64,000 nucleotides of DNA, from positions 3,596,001 through 3,660,000 of the forward strand of contig NZ_VFQE01000001.1 of NCBI RefSeq assembly GCF_006717095.1. The letters are read 5' to 3'. This DNA comes from Blastococcus colisei (GTDB lineage: Bacteria; Actinomycetota; Actinomycetes; Mycobacteriales; Geodermatophilaceae). The notes beneath the pieces are model-generated. The model was given only the letters and a program-made list of their open reading frames with translations, was not told where the DNA came from and did no database searches. The number at the start of each line of letters is the position of its first letter. Position 1 is the stretch's first letter. Positions 11,672 through 35,921 of the stretch are shown in pieces. The position numbers and the translations under genes are program-made.

Positions 11672-12825
<1,154 letters not shown>

Positions 12826-20390: not shown

Positions 20391-20536
20391 GGAACTTCCT
20401 CGGCTCGGTGGACTGGCCCCGACCCTAACGGCGCGGGACGACGATTCCGAGGCTCCGATTGGCGCGGTCGCAACACGTGCGCTATTGCCCGGACGGACGG
20501 GGCGGGCGATGCGCACGGTGCGTACTGTCGGGCGAC

Positions 20537-21238
20537 GTGGCAGACAGCGCAGGGCACCTGGTCTGGATCGACTGCGAGATGACCGGGCTCGACATCGTCA
20601 AGGACAAGCTGATCGAGGTCGCCGTCGTCGTGACCGACTCCGAGCTCAACGTACTCGACCCGGGTCTGGACCTGATCATCACTGCGGACGACGCCGACCT
20701 CGACGGCATGGACGAGGTCGTCGTCGAGATGCACCGGAAGTCCGGCCTCACCGACGCCGTCCGCGCCTCGACGCTGACCGTGGCCGAGGCCGAGCAGCAG
20801 CTGCTCGCCTACATCAAGCGCTGGGTGCCGGAGCGCCGGACCGCCCCGCTGTGCGGCAACTCGATCGGCACCGACCGGGGATTCCTGGCCCGCGACATGC
20901 CCGAGCTCGACGACCACCTGCACTACCGGATGGTCGACGTCTCCTCGATCAAGGAACTCGCCCGCCGATGGTTCCCGCGGGTGTACTTCGCCCAGCCTCC
21001 GAAGGGCCTCGCTCACCGGGCACTGGCCGACATCATCGAGTCGATCCGCGAGCTGGCCTACTACCGCCGGACGCTGTTCGTGCCCGCTCCCGGACCGAGC
21101 AGCGACCAGGCCAAGGGCGCTGCCGACGACGTCGTGGGCTCGTTCGCCGCAGTCCTGGCGGCCGGCGACGCGACCCCTCGGGTCGGTGTCGACGACAGCC
21201 TGGACGACGAGGCACCCCCGGCCGCGTCGGGGAGCTGA
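20537..21238 (+). CDS. orn: Oligoribonuclease
   Basis: A 233-residue DEDDh 3'-5' exonuclease that finishes RNA decay by degrading short oligoribonucleotides. ExoI motif [11 protein letters not shown] carries the first Asp and Glu, [16 protein letters not shown] the second Asp, and [10 protein letters not shown] the catalytic His and last Asp. The C-terminal ~45 residues are an acidic extension beyond the usual ~180 residues, common in actinobacteria. It begins at GTG (MADSAGHL) and ends 61 bp before tRNA-His. Confidence 0.92.
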
Positions 21239-21299: not shown

Positions 21300-21375
21300 G
21301 TGGGTGTAGCTCAGTTGGTAGAGCACCAGGTTGTGATCCTGGGTGTCGCGGGTTCGAGCCCCGTCACTCACCCCA
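21300..21375 (+). tRNA. tRNA-His (anticodon GTG)
   Basis: A complete cloverleaf: acceptor GTGGGTG pairing with CACTCAC, D arm, anticodon stem CCAGG/CCTGG around TTGTGAT (anticodon GTG), T arm with TTCGAGC, and an encoded CCA end. Base 21299 is G and faces the discriminator C, giving the extra G-1 pair that is diagnostic for histidine tRNA. Its last 25 bases are repeated 7.6 kb downstream, so it is the likely integration site of the following island. Confidence 0.96.
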
Positions 21376-21376
21376 C
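21351..21376 (+). repeat. Left attachment site (attL) within tRNA-His
   Basis: The 26 bp beginning GGTTCGAGCC and ending CACCCCAC cover the T-loop, acceptor 3' strand, CCA and one further base. The same 26 bp recur at 28981-29006. Just upstream the copies share GTCGC with a one-base offset, so similarity fades at the tRNA variable loop side. Confidence 0.75.
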
Positions 21377-21382
21377 GTGGAG

Positions 21383-21412
21383 AGGCCCTGGTCAGTTCGC
21401 TGACCAGGGCCT
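21383..21412 (+). terminator. tRNA-His terminator hairpin
   Basis: A perfect 13-bp stem (AGGCCCTGGTCAG / CTGACCAGGGCCT) with a TTCG tetraloop, starting 7 bp after the attL repeat. A related hairpin with the same loop follows attR at 29011-29044, so the two flanks share ancestry beyond the tRNA. Confidence 0.8.
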
Positions 21413-22128
21413 TCATCCGTTCCGGCGCTGCCAACGGCGGCCATCGGATCCCGCCGCCCCCTCATCTGGGCGGCAGATCGGTAGGCGGTGACGGGGCGAC
21501 TGCGCAGCGCAGGCAAGCCCCGATGTCTGTGTCGCCTCCAGGCCGAGCGCCGCAGGACCTCCGTCGACTCCTGAACCCTTTCGACCGCCCAGGTGTCGTG
21601 GGGACCGCCCATGACGGGAGCGCCCTCGCGGCGACGGACCCGACCTCCTACGTCGCCGTCGACCTGCACGCCGTGAGAAGCCGGCCGCCGCGTCAGGTGG
21701 CAGACCCGATCGGTTTCGGAGCCTCGGCGGCGGCCTCCTGGCCTGAGCCTCGGCTTCTCGCCAGCCCACAGCCGTAGGGCAGTCGCCGCGCGGCCTCGCT
21801 GGGCGCACTGGCGAGGTAGGTGGCGCACTCCCCGGTGCCTTCGATGTAGGCCGCGGTCCGCTCGCCCCATTCGGACGCATCCGGCCGAGCCCGCAACCTG
21901 CGAGCGGTGTCGGCATGAACAGCAGCGACATCCGCCCACCGCGACCACCTCGCGGCAACCCCGTCCACCTCCGGGTCGCGGTCCTCACCTCGGTGGCCAC
22001 GCCGACGTGGTGCCCCCAGCCCCCGACACGCTGACGATCGATGGAGAAGCGCGGCCTCCAGCACCGCGTCTACGTCATGTCTCCTTGCCGTCGCGGCCGC
22101 CTGGCCGCCCTGGGTCGATCATGGACGC
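21413..22128. other. Island left end, no intact gene; possible decayed coding sequence
   Basis: This 716-bp stretch precedes kdpD. On the minus strand, 21693-22064 can be read as ~123 codons with a protein-like middle (VAARWSRWADVAAVHADTARRL, then GERTAAYIEGTGECATYLAS), but it has no convincing start, a mixed third-base pattern and poor ends. It may be the remnant of an element gene. I cannot match it to integrases or any other family. No promoter stands out. Confidence 0.35.
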
Positions 22129-24675
22129 ATGCCTCGCGGGATCCTGCGCATCTACCTCGGCGCCGCGCCTGGTGTCGGGAAGACCTACGCCATGCTCGGT
22201 GAGGCGCACCGTCGACTGTCCCGGGGTGCCGACGTCGTGGTCGGACTGGCCGAAACCCACGGCCGCGCCCACACCGCCGAGCAGCTAGCCGGGCTGGAGG
22301 TCCTCTCCCGCAGCGAGGTCACCGACGGCTCAACGTCCGTGGCGGAGCTCGATGTCGACGGGGTGCTCGCGCGCCGCCCGGAAGTGGTCGTCATCGACGA
22401 GCTCGCCCACACCAACGCTCCCGGTTGCTGCCACGCCAAGCGCTGGCAGGACGTCGAGCAGGTGCTGGACGCGGGCATCAGCGTGCTCACCACGGTGAAC
22501 GTGCAGCAGGTGGAAAGCCTCATCGACGTGGCTGAACAGATCACGGGCGTTCCACAGCTGGAAACGGTGCCCGACGCGGTCGTACGCCGAGCCGACCAGA
22601 TCGAACTGGTCGACATGTCCCCCGAGGCGCTGCGCCGCCGCTTAGCCCACGGCAACGTCTACCCGGCCGAGATGATCGACGCCGCAATGGGCAACTACTT
22701 CCGGATCGGCAACCTCACCGCCCTGCGGGAGCTGGCGCTGCTGTGGCTGGCCGACCGCGTCGATGAAGGCCTGCGGCGGTACAAGACCGAGCACGCCATC
22801 GACCACGTGTGGGAGGCACGCGAGCGGGTCGTGGTCGCCCTGACCGGCGGACCGGAGGACGAGACTCTCATTCGGCGCGCCGCCAGGATCGCCGCTCGTT
22901 CCGCGCGGGGCAGCGAGATCGACCTCCTGGCGGTGCACGTCCTCACCGGCGGAGAGCGGGATGAGACGGCGACTTCCGGTCTGCAAGGGCAGAGGCAGCT
23001 GGTGGAGGATCTCGGGGGCAGCTACCACCAGGTAGTCGGGAACGACGTCCCGAAGGCGCTGTTGGAGTTCGCGAGCAGCGCAGAGGCCACCCAGCTGGTC
23101 ATCGGCACCAGCCGCCGCTCTCGCTGGGCCCGGGCGCTCCGCTCAGGGATCGGCGCGGAGGTTGTGGCGCAGTCCGGCGAGATCGACGTCCACCTCGTCA
23201 CCCACCCTGCGGCCGGCGGGCACGGGTTCCGGTTGCCGCCCCTGACGGGCGCGCTCGATTCCCGTCGCCGATGGTGGGGACTGGCCCTGACCGTGGTGGG
23301 CGTCCCGGTGTTGACCAAAGGCGGCCTGGCCGCCTCCGCCGCCCTCTCGCTGGCCAGCGTCATGCTCGTGTTCCTGCTGCTGGTGATCGCCGTCGCGTTG
23401 ATCGGCGGTCTGTGGCCTGGGCTGCCCGCCGCGGTCGTGAGCGCGACGGCCGTGAACTGGTTCTTCACGCCACCCACCGGTCGGCTGCACGTCGACCGAT
23501 TCGAGAACCTGCTGGCCCTCGGCGTCTACCTGATTACCGCGATCGCGGTCGCCACCGTCGTGGACCGGTCGGCTCGCCGCGCCGCTGACGCCGCTCGGTC
23601 GCGCGCCGAGACGGCGATGCTCGCATCCCTGTCCCGGTCCGTGCTGGCCGGCGACCAGGGCCTGCCCCGACTGCTGGAGCAGATCCGGGAGGCGTTCGGC
23701 CTGGTGTCGGTGACGATGGTGGAGTGCACACACGGCGAGGAGCGCACGGTCGGCTCCTGCGGTGAGCCGGCCGCGCAGGTCACCGACGAGGTCGCCGTCA
23801 CCGATGCCCTTGCCCTGCGGCTGTGGGGGCGGCCCCTGTCCACGAGCGACCGCCGGGTGCTCGTCTCCTTCGCCGAACAGGCCGCGGTAGCGCTCCAGCA
23901 GGGCCGGTTGGCCGCGCAGGCCGCCGAGGCCGCACGGCTCGCCGCCGCCAACAGCATGCGAACCGCGCTGCTCGCCGCGGTGAGCCACGACCTGCGCACC
24001 CCCCTGGCGGGGATCAAGGCGGCGTCCTCGGCGCTGCGCTCGACGGAGCTGCGCCTCTCCGTGGCCGACCGGACGGAACTGGTGGAGACGGTGGACACGT
24101 CCGCCGACCGGCTGTCCGCACTGGTGGACAACCTGCTGGACATGAGCCGGTTGCAGGCCGGCGCAGTCACCCCGGCGCTGAACCCCTCGGACCTGCCCGA
24201 TGTCGTCGCCCGGGCGCTGTCCTGGCTGGACGCCGACGATCAGCACCGTGTGCGGCTCAACTGGCCGAACGAACTGCCTGCGGTCGTTGCCGACCCCGGC
24301 CTCCTCGAACGCGTGGTCGCCAACCTGCTCAGCAACGCCGCCCGGCATGCCCCGAACGTGCCGATCCTCCTGTCCGCCGGCGCCGTCGGCGGAACGATGG
24401 AGCTGCGGGTGGCCGACCGTGGCCCGGGGATCCCTACCGCTGACCGCGAGCGGGTGTTCGTCGCCTTCCAACGACTGGGCGACTCCCCGTCCGGCCAGGG
24501 GGTCGGGCTGGGGCTGGCTGTCGCCCGAGGCCTGACCGAGGCGATGGGCGGCACACTCACCGCCGAGGACACCCCCGGCGGCGGGCTCACGATGGTGGTG
24601 TCCCTGGCAGTGGCCACCACCGCTCCCCCGACCACCGTGCCGGCGCCGGCGCCGGTCCCGGCCACAGCCCCATGA
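22129..24675 (+). CDS. kdpD: KdpD-type potassium sensor histidine kinase
   Basis: An 848-residue membrane kinase with full KdpD layout. The N-terminal KdpD domain has Walker A GAAPGVGKT at residues 11-19 and VVVIDELAHTN; a USP-like domain follows (~240-350). Four membrane helices (DUF4118) span ~385-480. A GAF-like linker leads to HisKA with the phospho-accepting His620 in AAVSHDLRTPL, then an ATPase domain (NLLSNAARHA, DRGPGIP, GVGLGLAVARG). It senses potassium or osmotic state and phosphorylates KdpE. The expected targets kdpFABC are absent; KtrAB genes follow instead. The tail is Ala/Pro/Thr-rich. Confidence 0.92.
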   Translation: MPRGILRIYLGAAPGVGKTYAMLGEAHRRLSRGADVVVGLAETHGRAHTAEQLAGLEVLSRSEVTDGSTSVAELDVDGVLARRPEVVVIDELAHTNAPGCCHAKRWQDVEQVLDAGISVLTTVNVQQVESLIDVAEQITGVPQLETVPDAVVRRADQIELVDMSPEALRRRLAHGNVYPAEMIDAAMGNYFRIGNLTALRELALLWLADRVDEGLRRYKTEHAIDHVWEARERVVVALTGGPEDETLIRRAARIAARSARGSEIDLLAVHVLTGGERDETATSGLQGQRQLVEDLGGSYHQVVGNDVPKALLEFASSAEATQLVIGTSRRSRWARALRSGIGAEVVAQSGEIDVHLVTHPAAGGHGFRLPPLTGALDSRRRWWGLALTVVGVPVLTKGGLAASAALSLASVMLVFLLLVIAVALIGGLWPGLPAAVVSATAVNWFFTPPTGRLHVDRFENLLALGVYLITAIAVATVVDRSARRAADAARSRAETAMLASLSRSVLAGDQGLPRLLEQIREAFGLVSVTMVECTHGEERTVGSCGEPAAQVTDEVAVTDALALRLWGRPLSTSDRRVLVSFAEQAAVALQQGRLAAQAAEAARLAAANSMRTALLAAVSHDLRTPLAGIKAASSALRSTELRLSVADRTELVETVDTSADRLSALVDNLLDMSRLQAGAVTPALNPSDLPDVVARALSWLDADDQHRVRLNWPNELPAVVADPGLLERVVANLLSNAARHAPNVPILLSAGAVGGTMELRVADRGPGIPTADRERVFVAFQRLGDSPSGQGVGLGLAVARGLTEAMGGTLTAEDTPGGGLTMVVSLAVATTAPPTTVPAPAPVPATAP

Positions 24676-25343
24676 GCCGAGTCCTGGTGGTCGACGACGA
24701 TCCGCAGCTGTTGCGGGCGCTGCGGATAACCCTGCGCGCGGCTGGCCACGACGTCGACACCGCGCCCGACGGGCGGACAGCACTGCAGCGCGCCGCCGCG
24801 GCCCCCGATGTCATCGTGCTGGACCTGGGCCTGCCCGATCTCGACGGCACAGAGGTGCTCGCCGGCCTCCGTCCCTCGTACTCCGGCCCGGTACTCGTGC
24901 TCTCCGCTCGCACGGACAGCCAGGACAAGGTGCGCGCGTTGGACGCCGGTGCCGACGACTACGTGACCAAGCCCTTCGACATGAGCGAGCTGCTCGCCCG
25001 ACTCCGCGCCGCACTGCGCCGCGGACCCGGCGAACCCGTCGACCGCGTCGTCACCACCGAGCACTTCACCGTCGACCTGACCGACCGCCAGGTCACGGTC
25101 GACGGCGCCCCGGTGCGCCTGACCCCGACCGAATGGGGACTGCTGGAGACGCTCGTCCGCCAGCCCGGCAGATTGGTCGGCCAGCGTCAGCTGCTGCAGT
25201 CGGTGTGGGGTCCCGCCTACGCCAAGGAGACCAACTACCTGCGCGTCTACATGGCGCAGCTCCGGCGCAAGCTGGAGCCCGACCCCGCCCACCCGCGCTA
25301 CCTGCAGACCGAACCCGGGATGGGCTACCGGTTCACTCCCTGA
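24672..25343 (+). CDS. kdpE: KdpE-type response regulator
   Basis: A 223-residue OmpR-class regulator overlapping kdpD by ATGA. The receiver has the acidic pair D8-D10, phospho-acceptor Asp51 (VIVLDLGLPD) and the conserved TKPFDMSELLAR lysine. The C-terminal winged helix ends in KETNYLRVYMAQLRRKLEPDP and GMGYRF, the standard KdpE ending. It should bind promoters when phosphorylated by the adjacent kinase. The nearest downstream target is the ktrB promoter region at 25344-25803. Confidence 0.92.
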   Translation: MSRVLVVDDDPQLLRALRITLRAAGHDVDTAPDGRTALQRAAAAPDVIVLDLGLPDLDGTEVLAGLRPSYSGPVLVLSARTDSQDKVRALDAGADDYVTKPFDMSELLARLRAALRRGPGEPVDRVVTTEHFTVDLTDRQVTVDGAPVRLTPTEWGLLETLVRQPGRLVGQRQLLQSVWGPAYAKETNYLRVYMAQLRRKLEPDPAHPRYLQTEPGMGYRFTP

Positions 25344-25803
25344 CGCGGCATGGGATGACCGGCGGCCCGCGGACTCCTCGGGGTTCCGGGCCACTGAGCC
25401 GACCATCTCTCTGAGCGCCCGGTCGGTCATGCCCGGGAAACCTGACGGCTGGCCATAGAGCAAGTGTTGGGCGCTAAGAAACCGTCAAGATCCGGCCTGG
25501 CGCCAGCGCCGACGTCCTCTGCGGCGCATCGTGGGCAGGCCGTCCGCTTCTGACGCCTCGCGCTCCCTGCGGGGACACGTGCGGACGTCCAGGCGGTCTG
25601 ACATTCGACCGGCGGAGTGGTCGGCCATCGAGGTGAGAAGGGACGGTTGCCGTGGGCTCGCTCGGAGCGGTCGCCGACGCGGGCCCTCTTTCGTGCGGCG
25701 AGGGGGGTCGGGAGCCGACGCCTGCAGTGCCCGCCATCCATGCGCCCGGCCCAGGTACCGGAGGCCAAGCACACTCGACTCGCTGGCCGGAGGACGAGCT
25801 CGG
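25344..25803. other. 460-bp gap between kdpE and ktrB
   Basis: The open frame running into ktrB from upstream here is Arg-rich and not protein-like, so I regard the gap as non-coding. It probably holds the ktrB promoter and any KdpE site. Small GC-rich inverted repeats occur (GGGTCGGGAGCCGACGCCT near 25707), but I see no convincing KdpE box and no cyclic di-AMP riboswitch consensus, although that element often precedes potassium genes. Confidence 0.4.
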
Positions 25804-27174
25804 GTGACGAGCACCGTCCGCGACACAGCCAGCCGCTCGAGTGCGACCAAGGGCTTTCGGCATCCTGGTCGGGTCATCGCAGCCGCCTTCGCCACGGCGA
25901 TCGTCGTCGGCACCGCGCTGCTGTCCTTGCCGATCGCCACTGCCGGGGAGGGCCGCGCCTCCCTTCTGCAAGCTCTGTTCCACGCGACCTCGGCCGTCTG
26001 CGTGACGGGGCTGGTGACCGTCGACACCGGCACGTACTGGTCCGGGTTCGGCCAGGCGGTCATCCTGCTGCTGATCCAGGCCGGCGGCCTGGGCATCATG
26101 ACGCTGGCCACCCTGGTCGCGTTGTTGCTGTCCCGGCGCCTGGGCCTACGGGCACGCCTGATCGCGCAGACCGAGACGAAGGCGATTTCGGCCGCAGACG
26201 TCCGCCGTGTGGTCCGCGCCGTCGTCGTCTTCAGCCTGGCCAGCGAGGCCGTGATCGCGACCGTGCTGACGATCCGGTTCGCCACCGGCTACGACCAGCC
26301 GCCGTCGTCGGCGCTCTACAGCGGCGTGTTCCACGCGATCTCGGCGTTCAACAACGCCGGGTTCGGCCTGCACCCCGACAGCCTGATGCGCTACGTCGCC
26401 GACCCGTGGATCAGCCTCACCGTCGCCGCCGCGGTCATCGTCGGCGGTTTGGGCTTCCCGGTGGTGTTCGAACTGGCCCGAGAGTGGCGGGCACCGAAGA
26501 CCTGGTCGGTGCTCACCCGGATCACCGTCATCGTCACCGCCGCGCTGCTGGCCGCCGGCACGATCGGCTACCTCATCGCCGAGGCCGACAACCCCGACAC
26601 CCTCGGTCCGCTGGGGCCGGGTACCACGGTGATGGCCGCGTTCGTCGCAGCGGCCATGCCGCGCACCGCCGGGTTCAACAACCTCGACATCGCCGCCCTG
26701 GACCCCGAGACGTTGTTCCTCACCGACGTGCTCATGTTCATCGGCGGCGGGTCCGCCGGCACCGCCGGCGGGATCAAGGTCACCACCTTCGGCCTGCTGG
26801 CCTACGTCCTGTGGGCCGAGATGCGCGGCGACCCCGACGTCGAGGTCGGCCGCCGCCGGGTCCCGGGCGCCAACCAGCGCCAGGCGCTGGCGATCGCGCT
26901 GCTCGCCATCGGGGTCATCGCCGTCTCCACCTTCGTGCTGGAGGCGCTGACCGACTTCAGCTTCGACCAGGTGCTGTTCGAGGTCATCTCCGCCTTCTCG
27001 ACCGTGGGCCTGTCCACCGGCATCACCGCCGACGTCCCGGCGGCCGGGCAGGTGCTGCTCGTGCTGCTCATGTACATCGGCCGGATCGGGCCGCTCACCC
27101 TGGCGTCGGGGCTGGCGCTACGCGAGCGCGCCCGCCGCCATCAGCTCCCCGAGGAGAGGACCATCGTTGGCTAG
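25804..27174 (+). CDS. KtrB/TrkH-type potassium channel subunit
   Basis: A 456-residue polytopic protein of the Trk/Ktr/HKT superfamily with four M1-P-M2 repeats. The four pore regions are recognisable, each with its filter glycine: TSAVCVTGLVTVDTG, SAFNNAGFGLHP, AAMPRTAGFNNLD and SAFSTVGLSTG. The gating-loop-like GGGSAGTAGGIKVTTF is present. It conducts potassium (with sodium or proton coupling in the family) across the inner membrane together with the RCK subunit encoded next. GTG at 25804 gives a normal cytoplasmic N-terminus and length. Only 8 bp separate it by overlap from ktrA. Confidence 0.92.
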   Translation: MTSTVRDTASRSSATKGFRHPGRVIAAAFATAIVVGTALLSLPIATAGEGRASLLQALFHATSAVCVTGLVTVDTGTYWSGFGQAVILLLIQAGGLGIMTLATLVALLLSRRLGLRARLIAQTETKAISAADVRRVVRAVVVFSLASEAVIATVLTIRFATGYDQPPSSALYSGVFHAISAFNNAGFGLHPDSLMRYVADPWISLTVAAAVIVGGLGFPVVFELAREWRAPKTWSVLTRITVIVTAALLAAGTIGYLIAEADNPDTLGPLGPGTTVMAAFVAAAMPRTAGFNNLDIAALDPETLFLTDVLMFIGGGSAGTAGGIKVTTFGLLAYVLWAEMRGDPDVEVGRRRVPGANQRQALAIALLAIGVIAVSTFVLEALTDFSFDQVLFEVISAFSTVGLSTGITADVPAAGQVLLVLLMYIGRIGPLTLASGLALRERARRHQLPEERTIVG

Positions 27175-27829
27175 CCACAAGGATCCCGTCGCCGTCATCG
27201 GCCTGGGCCGGTTCGGCACCGCACTCGCCCTGGAACTGGCCCGCGGCGGCACCGAGGTGCTCGCCGTGGACAACCGGCCCGACATCGTGCAGCGCCTGTC
27301 CGGCCAGCTGGGCCAGGTCGTCATCGCCGACTCCACCGACCTCGACGCGCTGACCGAGATCGGCATCGCCGACTTCAGCCGCGTCGTGGTCGCGATCGGC
27401 AACGACCTGGAGGCCAGCATCCTCACCACCGCCCTGCTGTCCGAGCTGGAGATCCGCGACATCTGGGCCAAGGCCATCAACCGGCAGCAGGCCACCATTC
27501 TCAGCCGCATCGGCGCCCACCACGTCGTTTTCCCCGAGCAGGACATGGGCGAACGGATCGCCCACCTGGTGGCCGGCCGGCTGCTGGACTGGGTGGAGCT
27601 GGACCCGCAGTGGGTGTTCGCCAAGACCAAGCCGCCGAAGGAGATCGTCGGCGTCCCGCTCGGCGACACCGGACTGCGCAAGAAGCACCACGTCACCGTG
27701 GTGTCGGTCAAGCCGGAGAACACGACCACCTACACCCACGCCGACTACGACACCGTGCTGACCTACGGCGCCGAGATCGTCATCGCCGGCCGCCCCGACG
27801 ATGTCGAGCGCTTCGTGGACGTGCAGTGA
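27167..27829 (+). CDS. KtrA/TrkA-type RCK gating subunit
   Basis: A 220-residue cytoplasmic protein. The RCK_N Rossmann fold starts with VAVIGLGRFGTALALELARGG and the acidic residue of VLAVDNRPD that binds the nucleotide ribose; RCK_C covers the last ~85 residues. The family octamer binds ATP, ADP or NAD(H), often cyclic di-AMP at RCK_C, and gates KtrB. It starts at TTG, overlapping the ktrB stop by 8 bp, with GAGGAGAGGA just upstream, so translation is coupled. Confidence 0.92.
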   Translation: MASHKDPVAVIGLGRFGTALALELARGGTEVLAVDNRPDIVQRLSGQLGQVVIADSTDLDALTEIGIADFSRVVVAIGNDLEASILTTALLSELEIRDIWAKAINRQQATILSRIGAHHVVFPEQDMGERIAHLVAGRLLDWVELDPQWVFAKTKPPKEIVGVPLGDTGLRKKHHVTVVSVKPENTTTYTHADYDTVLTYGAEIVIAGRPDDVERFVDVQ

Positions 27830-27853
27830 ACCGCGGCCCGCGGAGCAGTCGCC

Positions 27854-28045
27854 ATGGGTGAGAGCCTGCGCGCCGCCCTCCCGATGGTGATGTTGATCGG
27901 CGGCATTGCGCTGATCGTCTACGCCGCCTACCTGCACTACGCCGCCCTGCCCGAGGAACACACCACGAGGCATGTCGCCACCAGGGCAGCCATCGCAGTT
28001 GTCGGGCTCGCTCTCATCTTGCTGGGAGCCGGGTCCTTCCACTGA
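27854..28045 (+). CDS. Small two-helix membrane protein
   Basis: A 63-residue protein with two hydrophobic segments (MVMLIGGIALIVYAAYLHYAAL and AAIAVVGLALILLGAGSF) joined by a short charged loop (PEEHTTRHVATR). It begins 24 bp after the ktrA stop and is oriented with it. Size and position suggest an accessory or stabilising subunit of the Ktr complex, similar in role to KdpF, but this is inference; I recognise no family. Confidence 0.6.
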   Translation: MGESLRAALPMVMLIGGIALIVYAAYLHYAALPEEHTTRHVATRAAIAVVGLALILLGAGSFH

Positions 28046-28087
28046 GCCCGCTGCCGTCGCCAGGGCAGTCGTGCCGCTCATCCCGCC

Positions 28088-28600
28088 ATGTGGAGTCGCA
28101 TGAACCTCGAAAGGGTCGTCTTCGGATTCTTCGTGCTGCTCGCCGCGACGTTGAACTTCGGCTTCTTCGTCGGTGACATCTCCGACCCCGCTATCCACAA
28201 TGAATACGAACTGTTCGCGGCCGTGTTGATCAACCTGATCGCCACAGTGCTCAAGTTCGGTGACCGAACTCATCTCGGTGCAGTGCACCTGGCGACCAGC
28301 CTTGTGGCGGACCTTCAGTTGATCGCGGCCACCTGCGTATGGCTGTACGCCTCACAGATCTCGTCCGAGGGACTCACCGGCGGCGCCACGGCCAGCGTCG
28401 TGTCGCTCTCCGGAGGGGCACTGCTCGCCAATCTCATCTCCGTGGGGCTGCTGGTGACCGAAACCGTGTCCTTTCGCGCCTCCCGGCCGGGGCACAGTCG
28501 GGAGCAGAGCGGCATGACTGATGGTCCGGCACCGGGCGAGGAGAGTGGAAGTCGCGACTCCTGTGGCCGTGATGCGGATGGCCCCGGTCAGGAAACCTGA
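28088..28600 (+). CDS. DUF6394-like membrane protein linked to Ktr genes
   Basis: A 170-residue protein with about four hydrophobic helices (VVFGFFVLLAATLNFGFFVGDIS, FAAVLINLIATVLKFG, VADLQLIAATCVWLYASQI, GGALLANLISVGLLVTETVSF) and a disordered charged tail of ~40 residues. The opening MNLERVVFGFFVLLAATLNFGFFVGDI resembles a family I know as DUF6394, found beside Trk/Ktr genes in proteobacteria; I recall this and could not check it. The start is either 28088 or the ATG at 28100. It is the last intact gene of the island. Confidence 0.65.
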   Translation: MWSRMNLERVVFGFFVLLAATLNFGFFVGDISDPAIHNEYELFAAVLINLIATVLKFGDRTHLGAVHLATSLVADLQLIAATCVWLYASQISSEGLTGGATASVVSLSGGALLANLISVGLLVTETVSFRASRPGHSREQSGMTDGPAPGEESGSRDSCGRDADGPGQET

Positions 28601-28784
28601 CCGGGCCTCGTCGGCCTGTGGCTCGAGCCGCTCGACGTCGCCGCCGCAGCCGGCCTCGTCAGCTACTTCCTCGGCGCGGTCGGCGGCCACCTGCGCGTCC
28701 GCGACACCAAGAACCTCGCGATGCCGCTGCCGCCGCTCCTGCTCGCCATCGCCGTGCTCGCCCCTACGCCTTCTGACCCTCTGA
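28601..28784 (+). pseudogene. C-terminal remnant of a DoxX-like membrane protein
   Basis: Directly after the previous stop, the frame beginning at 28604 encodes VGLWLEPLDVAAAAGLVSYFLGAVGGHLRVRD, then PLPPLLLAIAVLA. This matches the last two helices of DoxX-like proteins. There is no start codon and the N-terminal half is missing. A one-base shift near 28760 restores a natural ending (LRLLTL, stop at 28784), so a frameshift is also likely. It marks decayed DNA at the island's right end. The stretch 28785-28980 shows no gene. Confidence 0.55.
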
Positions 28785-28980
28785 TGAGAACGGCGTCGTC
28801 CCCCACGGCTACCAAGCAGCTCGGGCTCATCTCGGTGCGGGCGGGCTTGGGGGGCAGATTGGGGGGGCAACTGCCAGCCACAGGAGGGCTCGTGAAGGCT
28901 CAGGGACGCAGAAGGACGCTCATCAACCGGCTAACCTGGGCATTCGCCGGGCCACCAGGCCCGGGACCAGCCTTCGTCGC

Positions 28981-29006
28981 GGTTCGAGCCCCGTCACTCA
29001 CCCCAC
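28981..29006 (+). repeat. Right attachment site (attR), tRNA-His 3' fragment
   Basis: An exact 26-bp copy of 21351-21376. No acceptor 5' strand, D arm or anticodon arm precedes it, so it is not a tRNA gene. It probably represents the original chromosomal 3' end of tRNA-His displaced by integration. Confidence 0.75.
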
Positions 29007-29010
29007 CCAG

Positions 29011-29044
29011 AAGGGCTCTGGTCACTTCGCTGATCAGAGCCCTT
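29011..29044 (+). terminator. Hairpin after attR, relative of the tRNA-His terminator
   Basis: AAGGGCTCTGGTCA pairs with TGATCAGAGCCCTT (13 of 14, one G-T) around the loop CTTCGC. Loop and central stem (CTCTGGTCA, TTCGCTGA) match the hairpin after attL. No gene lies between this and the TetR stop at 29156. Confidence 0.7.
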
Positions 29045-29155
29045 CTCGTTATCAGGCCAGCACTGAGGGGCGATCGGCCCGCACTGCGAGCTGCCCGCGG
29101 GCCGTTGAGCGCGATGTCGGTGCCGGCGTCGCACCGCTCGAACTCCGCGTGCAGG

Positions 29156-29764
29156 TCACCGGCACGCATCAGACGCGTAGGACCTGAGCTGGCTCCGTGC
29201 GATGGCGAGCGCATTGCGCATGGGGCGTACGTCGCGCTTCGTCGAGGAGAGCAGGTATCCGCCCTGCAGTACGGCGATCGTCGTCTCAGCGAGGGTGTCG
29301 GGGTCGGCGTCGTCGCGTAGCAGCCCGCTGGACTGCATGGCCTGCAGTCCGTCGCTCAGGACGGACTCCCAGTGGGCGAAGGCGTCGGCGGCCTGGGTGC
29401 GGAGCAGGTCACCGTGGTCCAGCAGCTGGCTGGTGATCGAGCCGAGTGGGCAGCCGCGGTAGTCGCGCTGGTTCTGCTGCATGTCGACCATGGCTCCGAA
29501 CCAGGCGGAGATGCCCTCCCAGGTGTCGAGCGGGAACCGGCTCTGCTCCCGCAGGACCTGCTGGAGCTGGTGGCGGAGCACCTCGGCGACGAGCTGCTCC
29601 TTGCTGGAGAAGTAGTGATAGAACTGGCTCTTGCCCGTCCCGGAGGCGGCCAGGATGTCCTCGATGCTGGTGGAGCTGACGCCCCGCTCGTACATCAGCG
29701 CGGCCGCCGACTCGACGATCCGGCCCTTGGTGTCTTTTCCGCGGCGGGTGGTCGGTTCCGGCAT
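29156..29764 (-). CDS. TetR family regulator divergent from the alcohol dehydrogenase
   Basis: A 202-residue protein with an N-terminal helix-turn-helix (GRIVESAAALMYERGVSSTSIEDILAASGTGKSQFYHYFSSKEQLV) and a helical ligand domain of the TetR_C YcdC/AcrR-like type (RGCPLGSITSQL). I start at the ATG of MPEPTTRRGKD because homology begins there. The divergent neighbour is a zinc alcohol dehydrogenase, with a perfect inverted repeat between them, so it likely represses that gene in response to an aldehyde or similar electrophile. Confidence 0.85.
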   Translation of the reverse strand: MPEPTTRRGKDTKGRIVESAAALMYERGVSSTSIEDILAASGTGKSQFYHYFSSKEQLVAEVLRHQLQQVLREQSRFPLDTWEGISAWFGAMVDMQQNQRDYRGCPLGSITSQLLDHGDLLRTQAADAFAHWESVLSDGLQAMQSSGLLRDDADPDTLAETTIAVLQGGYLLSSTKRDVRPMRNALAIARSQLRSYASDACR

Positions 29765-29968
29765 CGGCTGCGGCCTCGGTCGGCAGGTGGCGGCGGGGTG
29801 TTCGGTCAGCGCGGGTCCTACCCGATGTGGGCGTTCCACATGTGAGACGTCACCCACGCGCAACCCGGAGCCGTGAGGGGCGGGCCGGATAGAGGGCCGG
29901 CCGCGGTGAGCGGGGTGCCACGGAACCCCGGGAACGGCGTGATCGCCGGGCGTCTGGGCGGATTCGGA

Positions 29969-29986
29969 CTGTACCGAGGGGTACAG
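29969..29986. promoter_or_regulatory. Perfect inverted repeat CTGTACC-N4-GGTACAG, candidate TetR operator
   Basis: Two perfect 7-bp arms flank GAGG in the 316-bp gap 29765-30080 between the TetR gene and the alcohol dehydrogenase, 94 bp before the latter's start. GTACC-type dyads are common TetR operators. The remainder of the gap shows only short GC-rich stretches and no gene. Confidence 0.6.
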
Positions 29987-30080
29987 GCGCTGCGGTCGGG
30001 TAGAGCCCCAGCGGCGGCCAGTTCATGTCGCCGGCGGACGCACCGGGTCCCGTTCCGCACCGATCGGTCGAGGAGGCCAG

Positions 30081-31265
30081 ATGAGGGCACTGACATGGCA
30101 GGGCACGCAGAAGGTGTCGGTGGAGACGGTTCCGGACCCGCGGATCCAGGAGCCGACGGACGCGATCGTGCGGATGACCTCGACGGCGATCTGCGGGTCG
30201 GACCTGCACCTCTACGACGTGCTGGGGATGTACCTCGAGCCCGGCGACATCATCGGTCACGAGCCCATGGGCATCGTGGAGGAGGTCGGGCCGGAGGTCA
30301 GCCACATCCAGCCCGGAGACCGGGTGGTCGTGCCGTTCAACATCTCGTGCGGGCACTGCTGGATGTGCACCCGCGGCTTCTTCGCGCAGTGCGAGACCAC
30401 CCAGGTCACCGAGCAGGGCAAGGGCGCGCGGCTGTTCGGCTACACCGCCCTGTACGGGTCGATGCCCGGCGCGCAGGCCGAGTTCCTGCGGGTGCCGCAG
30501 GCCCAGTTCGGGCCGATCAAGGTTCCCCACGAGCACCCCGACGAACGGTTCCTGTTCCTCTCCGACGTGCTCACCACGTCCTGGCAAGCGGTGAAGTACG
30601 CCGACATCGAGGCCGGCAGCACCTGCGCGGTCATCGGGCTGGGACCGATCGGGCAGATGTGCGCCCGCGTCGCCAAGTACCTCGGCGCGGAGCAGGTCAT
30701 CGCCGTCGACAGCGTCCCCGAGCGGCTGGAACTCGCCCGACGCCACGGCATCGAGGTCATCGACCAGAGCACGGTCGACGACGTCCCCGGCGCGATCATG
30801 GAGATGACTCACGGGCGGGGTGTCGACGGCGTCGTGGACGCGGTCGGGATGGAAGCCCACGGCTCCCCCGTCCAGGCAGCCCTGCTCGGGGCCGCCGGCA
30901 AGCTGCCCGGCCCACTGGCCCGCAAGGCGGCCGAGACGATCGGTGTGGACCGGATGGCTGCCATGCGCACCGCGTTCGGGTCGGTCCGCCGGGCCGGGAC
31001 GATCTCGCTGATCGGGGTGTACGGCGGGCAGGCCGACCCGCTCCCGATGATGGACCTGTTCGACAAGGGCGTGACCATCCGCATGGGACAGGCGCACGTC
31101 AAGCGCTGGGTCGAGGAGATCATGCCCGCGCTCACCGGTGACGGCGACCCGCTGGGCACCGAAGACCTCACCACCCACGCGCTGCCGCTGGAGCAGGCGC
31201 CGCACGGCTACGAGATCTTCCAGAAGAAGCAGGACGGCTGCATCAAGGTCGTCCTCAAGCCCTGA
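30081..31265 (+). CDS. Zinc-dependent alcohol/formaldehyde dehydrogenase
   Basis: A 394-residue medium-chain dehydrogenase. The catalytic zinc ligands are in STAICGSDLHLY and IIGHEPMGIVEEVG. The structural zinc site is CGHCWMCTRGFFAQC with four cysteines. The NAD-binding fold has VIGLGPIGQMCARVAKYLGA. The inserted segment (LGAAGKLPGPLARKAAETIGVDR) and length match the glutathione-independent formaldehyde dehydrogenase-like subgroup. It oxidises an alcohol or aldehyde adduct with NAD. An ATG follows GAGGAGGCCAG. It is probably cotranscribed with the two genes after it. Confidence 0.88.
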   Translation: MRALTWQGTQKVSVETVPDPRIQEPTDAIVRMTSTAICGSDLHLYDVLGMYLEPGDIIGHEPMGIVEEVGPEVSHIQPGDRVVVPFNISCGHCWMCTRGFFAQCETTQVTEQGKGARLFGYTALYGSMPGAQAEFLRVPQAQFGPIKVPHEHPDERFLFLSDVLTTSWQAVKYADIEAGSTCAVIGLGPIGQMCARVAKYLGAEQVIAVDSVPERLELARRHGIEVIDQSTVDDVPGAIMEMTHGRGVDGVVDAVGMEAHGSPVQAALLGAAGKLPGPLARKAAETIGVDRMAAMRTAFGSVRRAGTISLIGVYGGQADPLPMMDLFDKGVTIRMGQAHVKRWVEEIMPALTGDGDPLGTEDLTTHALPLEQAPHGYEIFQKKQDGCIKVVLKP

Positions 31266-31336
31266 GAACCCCTGCCGGCCACCACCCCTGGCGCCGGCCG
31301 AGCACGCCCAGCCGCAACCACCTCGGAGGAACAGAC

Positions 31337-31810
31337 ATGCAGCAGACCAACGAACCGTCGACCGGGGCCGTGCTGGCCCGAGGGGTGCTCGCCGGACTGG
31401 CCGGAACCGTGGTGATGACCGCTTTCCAGAAGCTCGTCGAGATGCCCCTCACCCAGCGCCAGGAGAGCTACGCCCCGGCGGACTTCGCCGAGAAGGTCCT
31501 GCCCGTGCACCCGACGACCCCCGAGGGGCGCCGGCGGCTGAACTACACCACCCACTTCGCCCTCGGCGGCATGTGGGGCACCGCGTACGGCGTCGCGGCC
31601 GCCAACGGGCTGCGCGGGCAGAAGGCGGTCAACACCGTGTTCGCGGTCGTCTACACCGGCGACGTCCTGCTCAACACCGCGCTCGGGCTCTACCAGCCGA
31701 GCAAGTGGACGGCCCAGGACTGGGCGGTCGACATCGTGGACAAGTACGTGCAGGCCCAGGCCACCGGCGCCGTCTTCGATCACGTGCTGGACCCGGCCCG
31801 CCCGTCCTGA
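31337..31810 (+). CDS. Hypothetical membrane protein (DUF1440/YagU-like)
   Basis: A 157-residue protein with three likely membrane helices (AVLARGVLAGLAGTVVMTAF, FALGGMWGTAYGVAAANG, AVNTVFAVVYTGDVLLNTALGLY). The arrangement and the GTVVMTAFQKLVE start resemble YagU-type DUF1440 proteins, with moderate certainty. A clean GGAGGAACAGAC site precedes the ATG. It lies 71 bp after the alcohol dehydrogenase on the same strand. Confidence 0.6.
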   Translation: MQQTNEPSTGAVLARGVLAGLAGTVVMTAFQKLVEMPLTQRQESYAPADFAEKVLPVHPTTPEGRRRLNYTTHFALGGMWGTAYGVAAANGLRGQKAVNTVFAVVYTGDVLLNTALGLYQPSKWTAQDWAVDIVDKYVQAQATGAVFDHVLDPARPS

Positions 31811-31863
31811 CCGTGCCACCGGAGCCGCCGCATCCCATGCCGTGCGAGCAGAGGAGGCCAGGC

Positions 31864-32294
31864 GTGGACGCGACCAGCCAGCGGGTCGTGGTGATCACCG
31901 GGGCGTCGTCGGGCATCGCTCGGGAGACCGCCCGGCAGTTCGCCACCCAGGGCGCAGCGGTCGTGCCGGCCGCCCGCGGCGAGCCGGCGCTGCACGCCAC
32001 CGCCGAGGAGGTCACCCAGGCCGGCGGCACGGCGCTGGTCGCGCCCACCGACGTCGCGGGTGTGCCGCAGGTGCAGCACCTCGCGCAGCGCGCCCGGCAG
32101 CGTTTCGGCCGGATCGACGTCTGGGTGAACAACGCCGCGGCCTCCGGCTACGGGGAGCTCAACACGCTGCCCGTCGAGGCGATCGACCGAATTCTGGACG
32201 TCGACCTGCGCGGTCAGGTGTACGGGGTCAAGGCGGTCCTCCCGATCATGCGCGAGCAGGGGCACGGGACGATCATCGGCGTCAGCTCCGGGGG
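31864..32294 (+). pseudogene. Truncated short-chain dehydrogenase, cut at the cobN stop
   Basis: A GTG start after GAGGAGGCCAG opens a classical SDR: VVVITGASSGIARETARQFA (cofactor glycines), NNAAASGYGEL, and GTIIGVSS (catalytic Ser strand). Immediately after VSSG the sequence becomes the reverse complement of the cobN 3' end; the cobN stop is at 32295-32297. The reading frame stays open to 32559 but the added residues are antisense cobN. The YxxxK motif and the whole C-terminal half are missing, so the enzyme cannot be active. It marks a rearrangement breakpoint at about 32288-32294. Confidence 0.8.
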
Positions 32295-35200
32295 TCACCG
32301 GGCCGCCGGGATCGGCGACTCGCCTCCCTCGAGGTCGCCCTCGGTGTCCAGGTACGCCTGCTGGAGCTCGGCCAGCAGCGCCGGATCGGGCTCCGCCCAC
32401 ATCTTCCGGTCCACCGCCTCCAGCAGCCGCTCGGCGATGCCGTGGAGCGCCCACGGGTTCGACCTCTCCATGAACTCGCGGTTCTCCGCGTCGAGCACGT
32501 ACGTCTGCGCGAGCTTCTCGTACATCCAGTCGGCGACGACGCCGGTGGTGGCGTCGTAGCCGAACAGGTAGTCGACGGTCGCGGCGAGCTCGAAGGCGCC
32601 TTTGTAGCCGTGCCTGCGCATCGCCGCCAGCCACTTCGGGTTGACCACCCGGGCGCGGAACACCCGAGCGGTTTCCTCGCTCAGCGAGCGGGTCCGCACG
32701 GACTCGGGCCGGGTCGAGTCGCCGATGTAGGCCGCCGGGGCACGACCGGTCAAGGCGCGGACACTCGCGACCATCCCGCCGTGGTACTGGAAGTAGTCAT
32801 CGGAGTCGGCGATGTCGTGCTCGCGGGTGTCGACGTTCTTGGCCGCCACCGCGATCCGCTTGTAGGCGGCCTCCATGTCGGGCCTGGCCTGCACCCCGTC
32901 CAGGTCACGGCCGTAGGCGTAGCCGCCCCAGACCGCGTAGACCTCGGCGAGGTCGGCGTCCCCGCGCCAGTTGCGGCTGTCGATCAGCGGCAGCAACCCG
33001 GCCCCGTAGGCGCCCGGCTTCGATCCGAACACACGGGTCGTGGCCCGTCGCCGGTCGCCGTGGGTCGCCTCGTCGGCGTCCACGTGCGCCTTCACGTAGT
33101 TCTGCTCGCGCGGCTCGTCCAGCGCGGCCACCACCGTCACTGCGTCGTCCAGCATCGTGACCACGTGCGGGAAGGCATCCCGGAAGAACCCGCTGATGCG
33201 CACGGTGACGTCGATCCGCGGTCGGCCGAGCTCGGCGAGGGGGATCGGTTCCAGGCCGGTGACCCGTCGGGAGGCGTCGTCCCACAGCGGGCGGACGCCG
33301 AGCAGGGCGAGCACCTCGGCGATGTCGTCGCCCGAGGTCCGCATCGCCGAGGTACCCCACACCGAGAGGCCGACCGAGCGCGGGTACTCCCCGGTGTCGG
33401 CCCGATAGCGGTCGACCAAGGACTCGGCCATCGCCTGCCCGGTCCCCCAGGCCAGCCGCGAGGGCACCGCACGAGGGTCGACGGAGTAGAAGTTGCGGCC
33501 CGTGGGCAGCACGTTGACCAGCCCGCGGAGCGGCGAACCCGACGGCCCGGCCGGCACGTAGCCGCCCTCGAGCGCGTGCAGCGTGGCGTCGAGCTCGTCG
33601 GTGGTGCGCGCCAGCCGGGGCACGATCTCGTCGACGGCGAAGCGCAGGACGGCGACGACGGCGTCGTCGTCCCGGCCGAGCACCTCCGCCACCACCTCGG
33701 CGACGGCGACGGCGGTCCAACCGCGCTCCTCCATGGCTGCGACGAGGGCCTCCGCCTGCGCCTCCACGGCGTCGGTTGCGGTCAACCCGGCCGTGCCGTC
33801 CTCGGTCAGCCCGAGCGCTTCGCGCAGCCCGGGGAGCGCGACCGAGCCGCCCCAGATCTGCCGGGCGCGCAGCATGGCGAGCACCAGGTCGACCCGGTCC
33901 TGTCCGCTGGGCGGTGTTCCCAGCACGTGCAGGCCGTCGCGGATCTGCGAGTCCTTGATCTCGCAGAGCCAGCCGTCGACGTGCAGGATCATCTCGTCGA
34001 AGTGGTCGTCCTCCGGCCGGTCCTTCAGGCCCAGGTCGTGGTCGAGCTTGGCGGCCTGCAGCAGGGTCCAGATCTGCGCGCGGACGGCGGGCAGCTTGGC
34101 CGGGTCCATCGCGGCGACGTTGGCGTGCTCGTCGAGCAGCTGCTCCAGCCGGGCGATGTCGCCGTAGGAGTCGGCTCGCGCCATCGGCGGCACCATGTGG
34201 TCGACCAGGGTTGCGTGCGCGCGGCGCTTGGCCTGGCTCCCCTCCCCCGGGTCGTTGACCAGGAAGGGGTAGACCAGCGGCAGGTCGCCGAGCGCGGCGT
34301 CGGGCCCGCACGAGGCCGACATGCCGACCGTCTTGCCGGGCAGCCACTCCAGGTTGCCGTGCTTGCCCACGTGGACCAGCGCGTGCGCCCCGAAGACCGC
34401 TCGCAGCCACCAGTAGGCCGCCAGGTAGTGATGGGACGGTGGCAGGTCGGGGTCGTGGTAGATCGCGATCGGGTTCTCCCCGAAGCCGCGGGGCGGCTGG
34501 ACCATCACGACGACGTTGCCAGCCCGCAGCGCCGCGAAGACGATGGCACCGTCGGCCTCGTCGACGAACAGCGAGCCCGGTGCCGGTCCCCAGTGCTCCT
34601 CCATCGCCTGCCGCAGGTCGGCCGGGAGAGTGTCGAAGAAGGCGCGGTACTCGGCGGCGGGGATGCGGACCGGATTGCCGCTCAGCTGCTCCTCGGTGAG
34701 CCAGTCGGCGTCCTGCCCGCCCGCGGCGATCAGCGCGTGCACCAGGGTGTCGCCGTCGAGGTCTGCGACGCCGGGCAACGCGTCCGGCCCGTCGAACGGG
34801 CCGATGTCGTACCCCTGCCCCGCCATCGCGGCCAGCAGCCGGACGACCGACGCCGGAGTGTCCAGGCCGACGGCGTTCCCGATCCGCGCGTGCTTGGTCG
34901 GATAGGCGCTGAGCATCACCACGACGCGGCGCTCCTCCGGCGGCGTGTGCCGCAGCCGGGCATGGGCGACGGCGGTGCCGGCGACGCGGGCCGCGCGTTC
35001 GGGGTCGGCGACGTAGGAGGTCAGCCCGTCGGCGTCGGTCTCCTTGAAGGAGAACGGCACGCTGATCAGCCGGCCGTCGAACTCCGGGATGGCGACCTGG
35101 TTGCCGACGTCGAGAGGCGAGAGCCCGTCGTCGTCGGCGGCCCACTCCTCCCGCGACCGTGTGAGGCACAGGCCCTGGATCACCGGGATGTCGAGCGCCG

Positions 35201-35921
35201 CGAGCTCGCCGACGTCCCAGGCGCCGTCGTCACCACCGGCCTGCGCCGTCGCCGGCCGTGAGCCGCCGGCAGCGAGGACCGTGACGACCATCGCGTCTGC
35301 GCCTCGAAGGGTCTCCAGCAGTCCTGGGTCGACCGACCGCAGGGACGAGGTGAACACCGGCAGCGCGCGGCCACCGGCGTCCTCGATCGCCCGGCAGAGG
35401 GACTCGACGAAGTCGGTGTTGCCGGCCAGGTGGTGGGCCCGGTAGTAGAGGACGGCGACCGTCGGGCCGCTCGTCGTCCTGACCGCGCGGTCGAGCCGTC
35501 CCCAGTCGGGTGCGACCGCCGGCGGGTCGAACCCCTCACCGGTCAGCAGCACGGTGTCGGACAGGAACCGGCGCAGCTGGACCAGGTTCTCCGGCCCGCC
35601 CTGTGCGAGGTAGCCGTGCGCCTCGGTGGCCACCCCCATCGGCACCGTCGAGAGCTCCATCAGCTCGGCGTCGGGGACCTGCTCCCCGCCGAGGATCACG
35701 ACCGGCGCCGGACCGGCCAGCAGCGGGGCGAGCATCTCCTCGTACTGCCGCCGCACGCCCAGGATGCGGACGACCACCAGCGCGCTGCCCTCGACCAGCG
35801 CGGCGATGCCGGCGTCCCCCAGGCGGGCCGGGTTGCCCAGGCGCCATCCCGCACCGCTGGCGCGGGCGGAGAGCAGGTCGGTGTCGCTGGTGGACAGCAA
35901 GGTGAAGCCGGGGACGCTCAC
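32295..35921 (-). CDS. cobN: Cobaltochelatase large subunit CobN
   Basis: A 1208-residue CobN/ChlH-family protein, normal for the family (~1200-1275). It shows VAILYYRAHHLAGNTDFVESLC in the N-terminal third, HVGKHGNLEWLPGKTVGMS in the middle and RIDVTVRISGFFRDAFPHVVTMLDDA toward the C-terminus. It inserts cobalt into hydrogenobyrinic acid a,c-diamide with ATP, using the ChlI/ChlD-type partner at 43850-45913 because CobST is absent here. It starts at GTG and is preceded by a cobalamin riboswitch. Its stop codon abuts a truncated SDR, with no terminator in between. Confidence 0.95.
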   Translation of the reverse strand: MSVPGFTLLSTSDTDLLSARASGAGWRLGNPARLGDAGIAALVEGSALVVVRILGVRRQYEEMLAPLLAGPAPVVILGGEQVPDAELMELSTVPMGVATEAHGYLAQGGPENLVQLRRFLSDTVLLTGEGFDPPAVAPDWGRLDRAVRTTSGPTVAVLYYRAHHLAGNTDFVESLCRAIEDAGGRALPVFTSSLRSVDPGLLETLRGADAMVVTVLAAGGSRPATAQAGGDDGAWDVGELAALDIPVIQGLCLTRSREEWAADDDGLSPLDVGNQVAIPEFDGRLISVPFSFKETDADGLTSYVADPERAARVAGTAVAHARLRHTPPEERRVVVMLSAYPTKHARIGNAVGLDTPASVVRLLAAMAGQGYDIGPFDGPDALPGVADLDGDTLVHALIAAGGQDADWLTEEQLSGNPVRIPAAEYRAFFDTLPADLRQAMEEHWGPAPGSLFVDEADGAIVFAALRAGNVVVMVQPPRGFGENPIAIYHDPDLPPSHHYLAAYWWLRAVFGAHALVHVGKHGNLEWLPGKTVGMSASCGPDAALGDLPLVYPFLVNDPGEGSQAKRRAHATLVDHMVPPMARADSYGDIARLEQLLDEHANVAAMDPAKLPAVRAQIWTLLQAAKLDHDLGLKDRPEDDHFDEMILHVDGWLCEIKDSQIRDGLHVLGTPPSGQDRVDLVLAMLRARQIWGGSVALPGLREALGLTEDGTAGLTATDAVEAQAEALVAAMEERGWTAVAVAEVVAEVLGRDDDAVVAVLRFAVDEIVPRLARTTDELDATLHALEGGYVPAGPSGSPLRGLVNVLPTGRNFYSVDPRAVPSRLAWGTGQAMAESLVDRYRADTGEYPRSVGLSVWGTSAMRTSGDDIAEVLALLGVRPLWDDASRRVTGLEPIPLAELGRPRIDVTVRISGFFRDAFPHVVTMLDDAVTVVAALDEPREQNYVKAHVDADEATHGDRRRATTRVFGSKPGAYGAGLLPLIDSRNWRGDADLAEVYAVWGGYAYGRDLDGVQARPDMEAAYKRIAVAAKNVDTREHDIADSDDYFQYHGGMVASVRALTGRAPAAYIGDSTRPESVRTRSLSEETARVFRARVVNPKWLAAMRRHGYKGAFELAATVDYLFGYDATTGVVADWMYEKLAQTYVLDAENREFMERSNPWALHGIAERLLEAVDRKMWAEPDPALLAELQQAYLDTEGDLEGGESPIPAAR

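Follow-up and report, generated by a model that had tools for sequence, protein, structure and literature searches.

A set of potassium genes in Blastococcus colisei lies between a tRNA-His gene and a second copy of that gene's 3′ end, which raises the question of whether these genes arrived as the cargo of a tRNA-targeted island, and, if so, how they moved and what controls them. We analyzed the surrounding 64 kb (the window, on contig 1 of the 5.16-Mb genome, coded G000) against a genus group of 16 genomes and further genomes of the family Geodermatophilaceae. Islands of this kind integrate at the 3′ end of a tRNA gene and rebuild it, leave a direct repeat at the far end, and carry a tRNA-proximal integrase gene, arm-type sites and sometimes an excisionase-like gene. 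Taken as a whole, the locus is very probably an integrated and now decayed tRNA-His island that was built by recombination and carries mobile potassium cargo, within which KdpE would control ktrBA.

Boundaries and flanks of the island

The integration target, tRNA-His(gtg), spans 21300..21375 on the forward strand, as do all features below unless stated otherwise, and is intact according to ARAGORN and Rfam (tRNA, 64.8 bits). The chromosomal left flank is orn (oligoribonuclease; ORF at 20459..21238), which is present in 16 of 16 genus genomes. The prediction that 7.6 kb are bounded by an exact repeat of 26 bp from the tRNA-His 3′ end was confirmed. The 26-mer consists of the last 25 bases of tRNA-His plus one more (attL core, 21351..21376), recurs exactly at 28981..29006 (attR core), and is the sole direct (same-strand) repeat of at least 20 bp in the window, with a chance expectation of about 2e-10. 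The att copies are alike over approximately 70 bp with small gaps, from 5–6 bp upstream of the core through a terminator-like hairpin located at 21379..21418 after attL (−31.9 kcal/mol; z −6.0 for 21376–21425) and at 29009..29046 after attR (−28.5 kcal/mol; z −6.9 for 29006–29055). Because a strong hairpin follows each copy of the 26-mer, each end of the island seems to have its own tRNA terminator. GC content was of no use as an island signal, as the 70.6% of the island falls inside the window's own range for 7.6-kb windows (69.9–75.2%).

The conserved gene of the right flank is cobN (32295..35921, reverse strand; PF02514), which is also found downstream of tRNA-His in L023, L025, L106, L108, L243 and L286. 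The DNA between attR and cobN (29079..32292, no strand assigned; TetR, alcohol dehydrogenase and others) was considered as the native flank of an empty site and rejected because it matches island DNA of another genus group: it is 93.8% identical over 3221 columns to the segment between tRNA-His and att in G019 (group g2), compared with 88.3% for the adjoining cobN stretch and 85.8% for the orn–tRNA stretch of the same two genomes. Judged by these identities, what follows attR is left over from a second island and runs straight into cobN. The outermost att lies approximately 110–310 bp from cobN in G019 and G031, which shows that stacked insertions occupy the interval from tRNA-His to cobN. A perfectly clean orn–tRNA-His–cobN junction was found in none of the family genomes compared; the shortest tRNA-His-to-cobN distances, 1.3 and 1.9 kb, span one large ORF.

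Cargo genes and a putative KdpE box

The prediction of intact genes for KdpDE, KtrB, KtrA and two small proteins between the repeats was upheld by Pfam. The sensor kinase gene kdpD (22129..24675) encodes KdpD, Usp, DUF4118, HisKA and HATPase_c domains and is followed by the response regulator gene kdpE (24672..25343; Pfam, with KdpE as the best NCBIfam match, below its cut-off). The domain architecture of both proteins is present, and both score below the NCBIfam equivalog cut-offs. The Usp domain of S. aureus KdpD binds c-di-AMP, according to the title of PMC4686210, and the available text of PMC10117811 describes KdpDE as conserved in Streptomyces and unanalyzed there. The gene for a TrkH-family K+ transporter, ktrB (25804..27174; PF02386, 4.5e-57), adjoins that for an RCK regulatory subunit, ktrA (27167..27829; TrkA_N 5.4e-28, TrkA_C), as expected for Ktr/Trk K+ uptake. 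The two small genes encode a 63-aa protein that is membrane-like by eye and has no Pfam or NCBIfam match (27854..28045), and a DUF6394 protein (28088..28600; PF19931, 3.4e-36). Homologues of the 63-aa protein follow ktrA in G005, G014 and G042 at 55–60%. DUF6394 was discarded as a marker of the potassium module because most of the 69 genomes (of 108) that have it lack the module.

The cargo had been described as a complete set for potassium sensing and uptake. KdpDE and KtrBA are both there, but KdpA had no match in the window's genome (it had matches in three of 16 genus genomes), which leaves KdpDE as an apparent orphan sensor pair. A second TrkH/KtrB-type protein was likewise absent from this genome at E 0.001; with no other such match and no KdpA, the acquired island may hold the genome's only K+ uptake of the TrkH/KtrB and Kdp kinds.

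The original prediction was set against the case in which all relatives carry the same genes in the same place, which they do not: KtrB was found in four of 16 genus genomes and, at E 1e-60, in 27 of 112 family genomes, at 29 places. Twenty of these places, at approximately 75% identity or more, were read as loci, and nine at 53–60% were left out. A scan, an alignment and a control, the last over the 20 loci, delineated a conserved putative promoter footprint between kdpE and ktrB at 25470..25536, composed of CGCTAAG-N4-CGTCAAG at 25472–25489 and GCGCATCGTGGGC at 25524–25536. The direct repeat is found 3′ of kdpE in the window, G042, G014, G039 and G005, and it resembles repeats between kdpD and kdpA of G058, G039 and G031. 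The resulting box, which was derived from the same loci it was scored on, reaches 11–13 of 14 across the five loci, with 12 as the best in the window. A score of at least 12 within 700 bp before ktrB was obtained in three of the 20 loci (window, G042 and G014), and these are the three loci found with kdpE directly before ktrB and the box between them. The best score among the other 17 loci was 11, in G089, which is without kdpDE. Elsewhere, 24 sites scored 12 or more in 0.6 Mb of partly overlapping loci that include kdp promoters.

We infer from a conserved box 3′ of kdpE, resembling the repeats before kdpA, that KdpE drives ktrBA here. KdpE would act on ktrBA and the two small genes, so that K+ or osmotic stress would induce K+ uptake. 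It is also possible that the orphan KdpDE does not regulate ktrBA and is the leftover of a lost kdpFABC operon, an explanation to which we give tentative weight. It would fit the position of kdpA next to kdpDE in G058, G039 and G031 and the distance of the box from ktrB in G005 and G039, which exceeds 700 bp, and a response regulator may have other targets. It does not account for the conservation 3′ of kdpE, where the blocks GGCG..AGGAA/GGCGCTAAGAA-NN-(C/T)GTCAAG and CGCATCGTG are kept in five loci amid diverged intergenic DNA; the first half of the GGCGCTAAGAA-NN-CGTCAAG block differs in G014 and one base of its second half in G039, and G058, the sixth row of the alignment, is without the box.

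Arm-type sites, integrase remnant and spread among tRNA genes

A left (P) arm-type site, TGGGCGGC, is located at 21467..21490, at +90 past the core, the position that it has in sibling islands, and right (P′) arm-type sites TGGGGGGC and GGGGGGGC are located at 28848..28868, at −134/−121 from the core. Sites like TGGGGGGC occur near +90/+103 past the left core and −129/−117 before the right core in most of 11 islands, window included, a pattern that was set after some of the islands had been seen and has a chance expectation of approximately 0.07 per 260 bp; L240 has none, and L242 and L239 have none on the left. A degenerate second copy of TGGGCGGC was seen by eye. The 172-base right end (28839–29010) was searched against 108 family genomes, with up to seven candidates scored per genome. 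Besides the tRNA gene itself, at least 16 of the 107 other genomes contain a second att-like site with an E value of 9e-10 or lower. In each of the 16 it shares contig and strand with tRNA-His and lies approximately 1.5 to 26 kb downstream of it, which bears out insertion at the tRNA-His 3′ end.

The N terminus of an integrase (142 aa, from L031) matched 10 of 108 genomes; seven matches were beside tRNA-His (six strong and one weak), and the three elsewhere were weak. Four integrase-side frames were tested. The integrase of G029 has a catalytic Phage_integrase domain (PF00589, 9e-19; PHROG integrase, 6e-51), the frames of G053 and G097 are without this domain, the frame apparently being lost in the C-terminal part, and that of G046 encodes a PAS/GAF/ANTAR protein. 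Matches between a frame-shifted integrase C terminus and many GC-rich regions were set aside as composition noise. A small HTH protein, recognized by a weak HTH_17 match below cut-off, was found in G046, G031, G058, G053, G009 and L031 and is absent from the window island.

In the window's genome, the 142-aa query had no match at E 0.001, and integrase-domain matches included none at the island among the 15 listed of 16. The gene by which such an island is defined is represented beside tRNA-His by a 5′ fragment only (22010..22110, found by nucleotide matches and alignments to sibling loci). This fragment of approximately 100 bp is immediately upstream of the kdpD start at 22129, and approximately 450–500 bases of unassigned sequence lie between it and the left arm. 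It matched the integrase start in six of eight sibling loci (E 6.5e-4 to 8.8e-8, in a small comparison; no match to L244 or L249) and gave protein-level E values of 0.003–0.006, reading MEKRGLQHRVY at 22041–22073 versus IEKRGHQHRVY in the siblings (11 residues). These matches mark 22010–22110 as a truncated gene for the tRNA-His-specific tyrosine integrase. The original prediction that the island has no mobility genes therefore held in part: no intact integrase or excisionase-like gene was found in it, and none of its six intact genes is a relaxase or conjugation gene by Pfam, but the remnant before kdpD points to decay.

Together, the att pair, arms, hairpins, sibling islands and integrase remnant uphold integration at the tRNA-His 3′ end, and on this anatomy the 26-bp repeat is the attachment-site pair of a tyrosine-recombinase element. 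The element would belong to a family of small tyrosine-recombinase elements aimed at the tRNA-His 3′ end in Geodermatophilaceae. Their prototype reads tRNA-His, an integrase gene directed away from the tRNA, cargo that often includes stress genes, arm-type repeats, and a copy of the tRNA 3′ end with its terminator; several of the elements appear also to have a gene for a small HTH, excisionase-like protein between the cargo and the arm-type repeats. From the anatomy and the siblings, recombination between the tRNA 3′ end of the element and the chromosomal tRNA-His would have left an intact tRNA on the left and a 3′ end with terminator on the right. The integrase gene has since shrunk to its 5′ fragment in this genome, and because no excisionase-like gene was found either, the island is probably fixed in place.

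The same cargo had been expected at other tRNA genes, and it was found there. In 12 of the 20 loci, the module has a tRNA gene or tRNA 3′ remnant no more than approximately 760 bp away. The module is at tRNA-His in the window, G014, G039 and G111 (a remnant in the last two, where the K genes are beside att remnants), at tRNA-Arg in six g9 genomes (the gene of G085 was called tRNA-Ala by ARAGORN), at tRNA-Met in G005 and at tRNA-Leu in G080. In G100, G101 and G089, a tRNA-Arg remnant directly follows ktrA. In the tRNA-Arg and tRNA-Met carriers G102, G103 and G005, the scan of extended DNA covered tRNA genes. The module of G002 is 12.4 kb from tRNA-His. In G058:C8, a 23.2-kb tRNA-His..att island encloses the module together with kdpA, kdpC and a gene for a KdpB-type P-type ATPase. 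Such adjacency is lacking in G031, G042, G058:C12, G036, G023 and G035; no tRNA gene was found over approximately 59 kb near the KtrB locus of G042 or in the stretches read near those of G031 and G058:C12. When the loci were collapsed, after the data were seen, into 13 placements, four of them, not counting the window, had a whole tRNA gene within 750 bp with its 3′ end facing the module (G014, g9, G005 and G080); the chance of this is approximately 3e-6 at 50 tRNA genes per genome, the figure we assume, and 4e-5 at 100.

The four genus rows do not form one clade in the tree of KtrB+KtrA (AU p 0.018), where the window copy is placed beside g9 with support of 82/78, with two long branches, whereas Orn groups the window with G002 and G014 (97/95). 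The window KtrB is 82–84% identical to g9 versus 78–81% to its own genus, and Orn is 81–84% identical to g9 versus 88–93% to its own genus. The conflict between KtrBA and the host clade is moderate, given the p value of 0.018 and the support of 82/78. The cargo is patchy in the family, at odds with host phylogeny and found at several tRNA genes. Since relatives carry these genes too, whether at tRNA-His or at a different tRNA gene, K handling in Geodermatophilaceae appears to move around as mobile cargo. A more ambitious synthesis, which we put forward tentatively, is that K homeostasis is mobile (a KdpDE–KtrBA–microprotein module placed repeatedly at the 3′ ends of His, Arg, Met and Leu tRNA genes), that KdpE has been rewired via the box to Ktr in islands without KdpFABC, and that the 63-aa protein is a new Ktr subunit.

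The potassium genes could instead have been swapped by homologous recombination, through flanking repeats and with no integrase, into an existing tRNA-His/att cluster. We consider this unlikely: the module does differ in orientation between genomes, in the window and G111 facing away from the tRNA and in G014, G002, G058 and G039 facing it, and several modules adjoin att remnants and are not enclosed by an att pair, but in the window and G058 the K genes are enclosed by tRNA-His and an att copy and have arm sites at either side, and in the window integrase 5′ remnants occupy the tRNA-proximal end. Still less probable is a locus present at tRNA-His in the family ancestor and lost by most lineages. 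Such a locus would fit the K genes near tRNA-His or its remnants in six genomes from three genus groups (G000, G014, G002, G058, G039 and G111), but against this stand the low frequency of KtrB in the family, the other carriers at tRNA-Arg, -Met, -Leu or no tRNA, and the closer relationship of KtrB to g9 than to its own genus, the reverse of Orn. That the repeat is an unrelated scar of tRNA-gene duplication beside a normal chromosomal operon is scarcely credible, since arms, hairpins and the integrase remnant recur in sibling islands, even though the right copy is merely a tRNA fragment and the listed integrase-domain matches avoid the island.

Comparison with known mobile elements

Stone- and desert-dwelling actinobacteria meet sudden drying and salt shocks, and K+ uptake is an early response. 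This early response is here the cargo of tRNA-targeted islands in several genera and at different tRNAs. A review of KdpD/KdpE names Kdp as the one K+ transport system known to be strongly controlled at transcription (PMC3610689); the present locus makes it possible to test whether KdpDE controls a Ktr system.

The potassium-carrying tRNA-His island of the window is real and decayed, and K genes on mobile DNA are already known elsewhere. The cargo, which had been thought unusual, thus has precedents in the available text of PMC7029136, PMC9898762 and PMC3610689. In staphylococci, SCCmec type II and ACME IV/V are described as carrying the kdp operon (PMC7029136, PMC3610689), and in E. coli K-12 the cryptic Rac prophage carries trkG (PMC9898762). 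As far as these sources describe them, the staphylococcal elements resemble the window island in having K+-uptake and KdpDE genes as cargo of a direct-repeat-bounded chromosomal island, but their cargo is the kdp operon, whereas the window has KdpDE and Ktr with no KdpA. SCC-type elements also insert in orfX, unlike the window island at tRNA-His, and they use serine recombinases. The trkG/Rac case is similar, by the same sources, in that a transporter of the TrkH/KtrB superfamily was gained on an integrated element, and differs in being a transporter gene on a prophage; to our knowledge, no KdpDE lies beside it.

Plasmid-borne TrkG/TrkA genes were found in 59 plasmid records from Streptomyces, Rhodococcus and Arthrobacter. 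These actinobacterial replicons also bear TrkH-family genes, several of them accompanied by a TrkA-family gene; unlike the window's genes, the plasmid genes are not in tRNA islands as far as seen, and they are distant from them (56% or less, except one 63% match in a chromosome-sized 11.9-Mb record).

No publication on K+ cargo of tRNA islands in Geodermatophilaceae was found in the titles and abstract openings of open-licence PMC text, and the available text of PMC8602919 (Modestobacter) held nothing useful on islands or K+ genes. The window island is like other tRNA-targeting tyrosine-recombinase islands in its tRNA 3′-end site, rebuilt tRNA, far direct repeat and arm-type sites, and unlike typical ones in its decayed integrase and in that no transfer genes were identified. 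Compared with typical tRNA islands, the Geodermatophilaceae elements are small (approximately 1.5–26 kb from the tRNA to the second att), are stacked at one tRNA-His, and carry stress and ion cargo.

Integrase spacing and cargo at tRNA-His loci

Approximately 450–500 bp separate the left arm-type site of the window island (21467–21490) from the 5' integrase gene remnant (approximately 22010–22110), and no feature was assigned in this interval (21525–22000). In the sibling loci, the tRNA-His loci of relatives with comparable islands, the integrase instead starts approximately 190–240 bp past the tRNA. Four of these loci, L236 (genome G029), L239 (G023), L243 (G031), and L244 (G097), carry other stress-type genes: ClpB-like, Hsp20, redoxin, disulfide oxidoreductase, P-type ATPases, and acetate kinase. 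The far end of the G097 island was sought but not found. Taken together, the sibling loci resemble small fitness islands that belong to one family.

Segments near other tRNA genes

The TetR-alcohol dehydrogenase segment between attR and cobN (29174–32292) is 87.5% identical to its counterpart at locus L287, on a contig of G104 from another genus group of the family (g9), where a tRNA-Ala lies 4.4 kb away; it appears to be another travelling segment. In three potassium-gene (kdpDE/ktrBA) loci (L178, L180, and L185), tRNA-Arg(CCT) 3' remnants immediately follow ktrA, and an intact tRNA-Arg lies 0.7–3 kb beyond them; this arrangement represents layered insertions at a second tRNA. Beside the G005 potassium module, two tRNA-Met genes (L190, reversed, 12247–12321 and 16940–17016) match exactly across 75 bases and are separated by 4.6 kb, perhaps reflecting an element with a whole tRNA copy aboard.

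Small proteins of the potassium modules

DUF6394 was present in 69 of 108 genomes in the family-wide search. Several genomes of the genus have a copy roughly 10–80 kb downstream of orn-tRNA-His, and a second copy lies within the potassium module in the window genome (G000), G005, G042, and G039. Directly 3' of ktrA in the window, a gene (27854–28045) encodes a 63-amino acid protein that had no family match in Pfam or NCBIfam. Its homologs in three other potassium modules (L187, L190, and L114) are 55%–60% conserved; it is probably a two-helix membrane protein and is a candidate Ktr accessory subunit.
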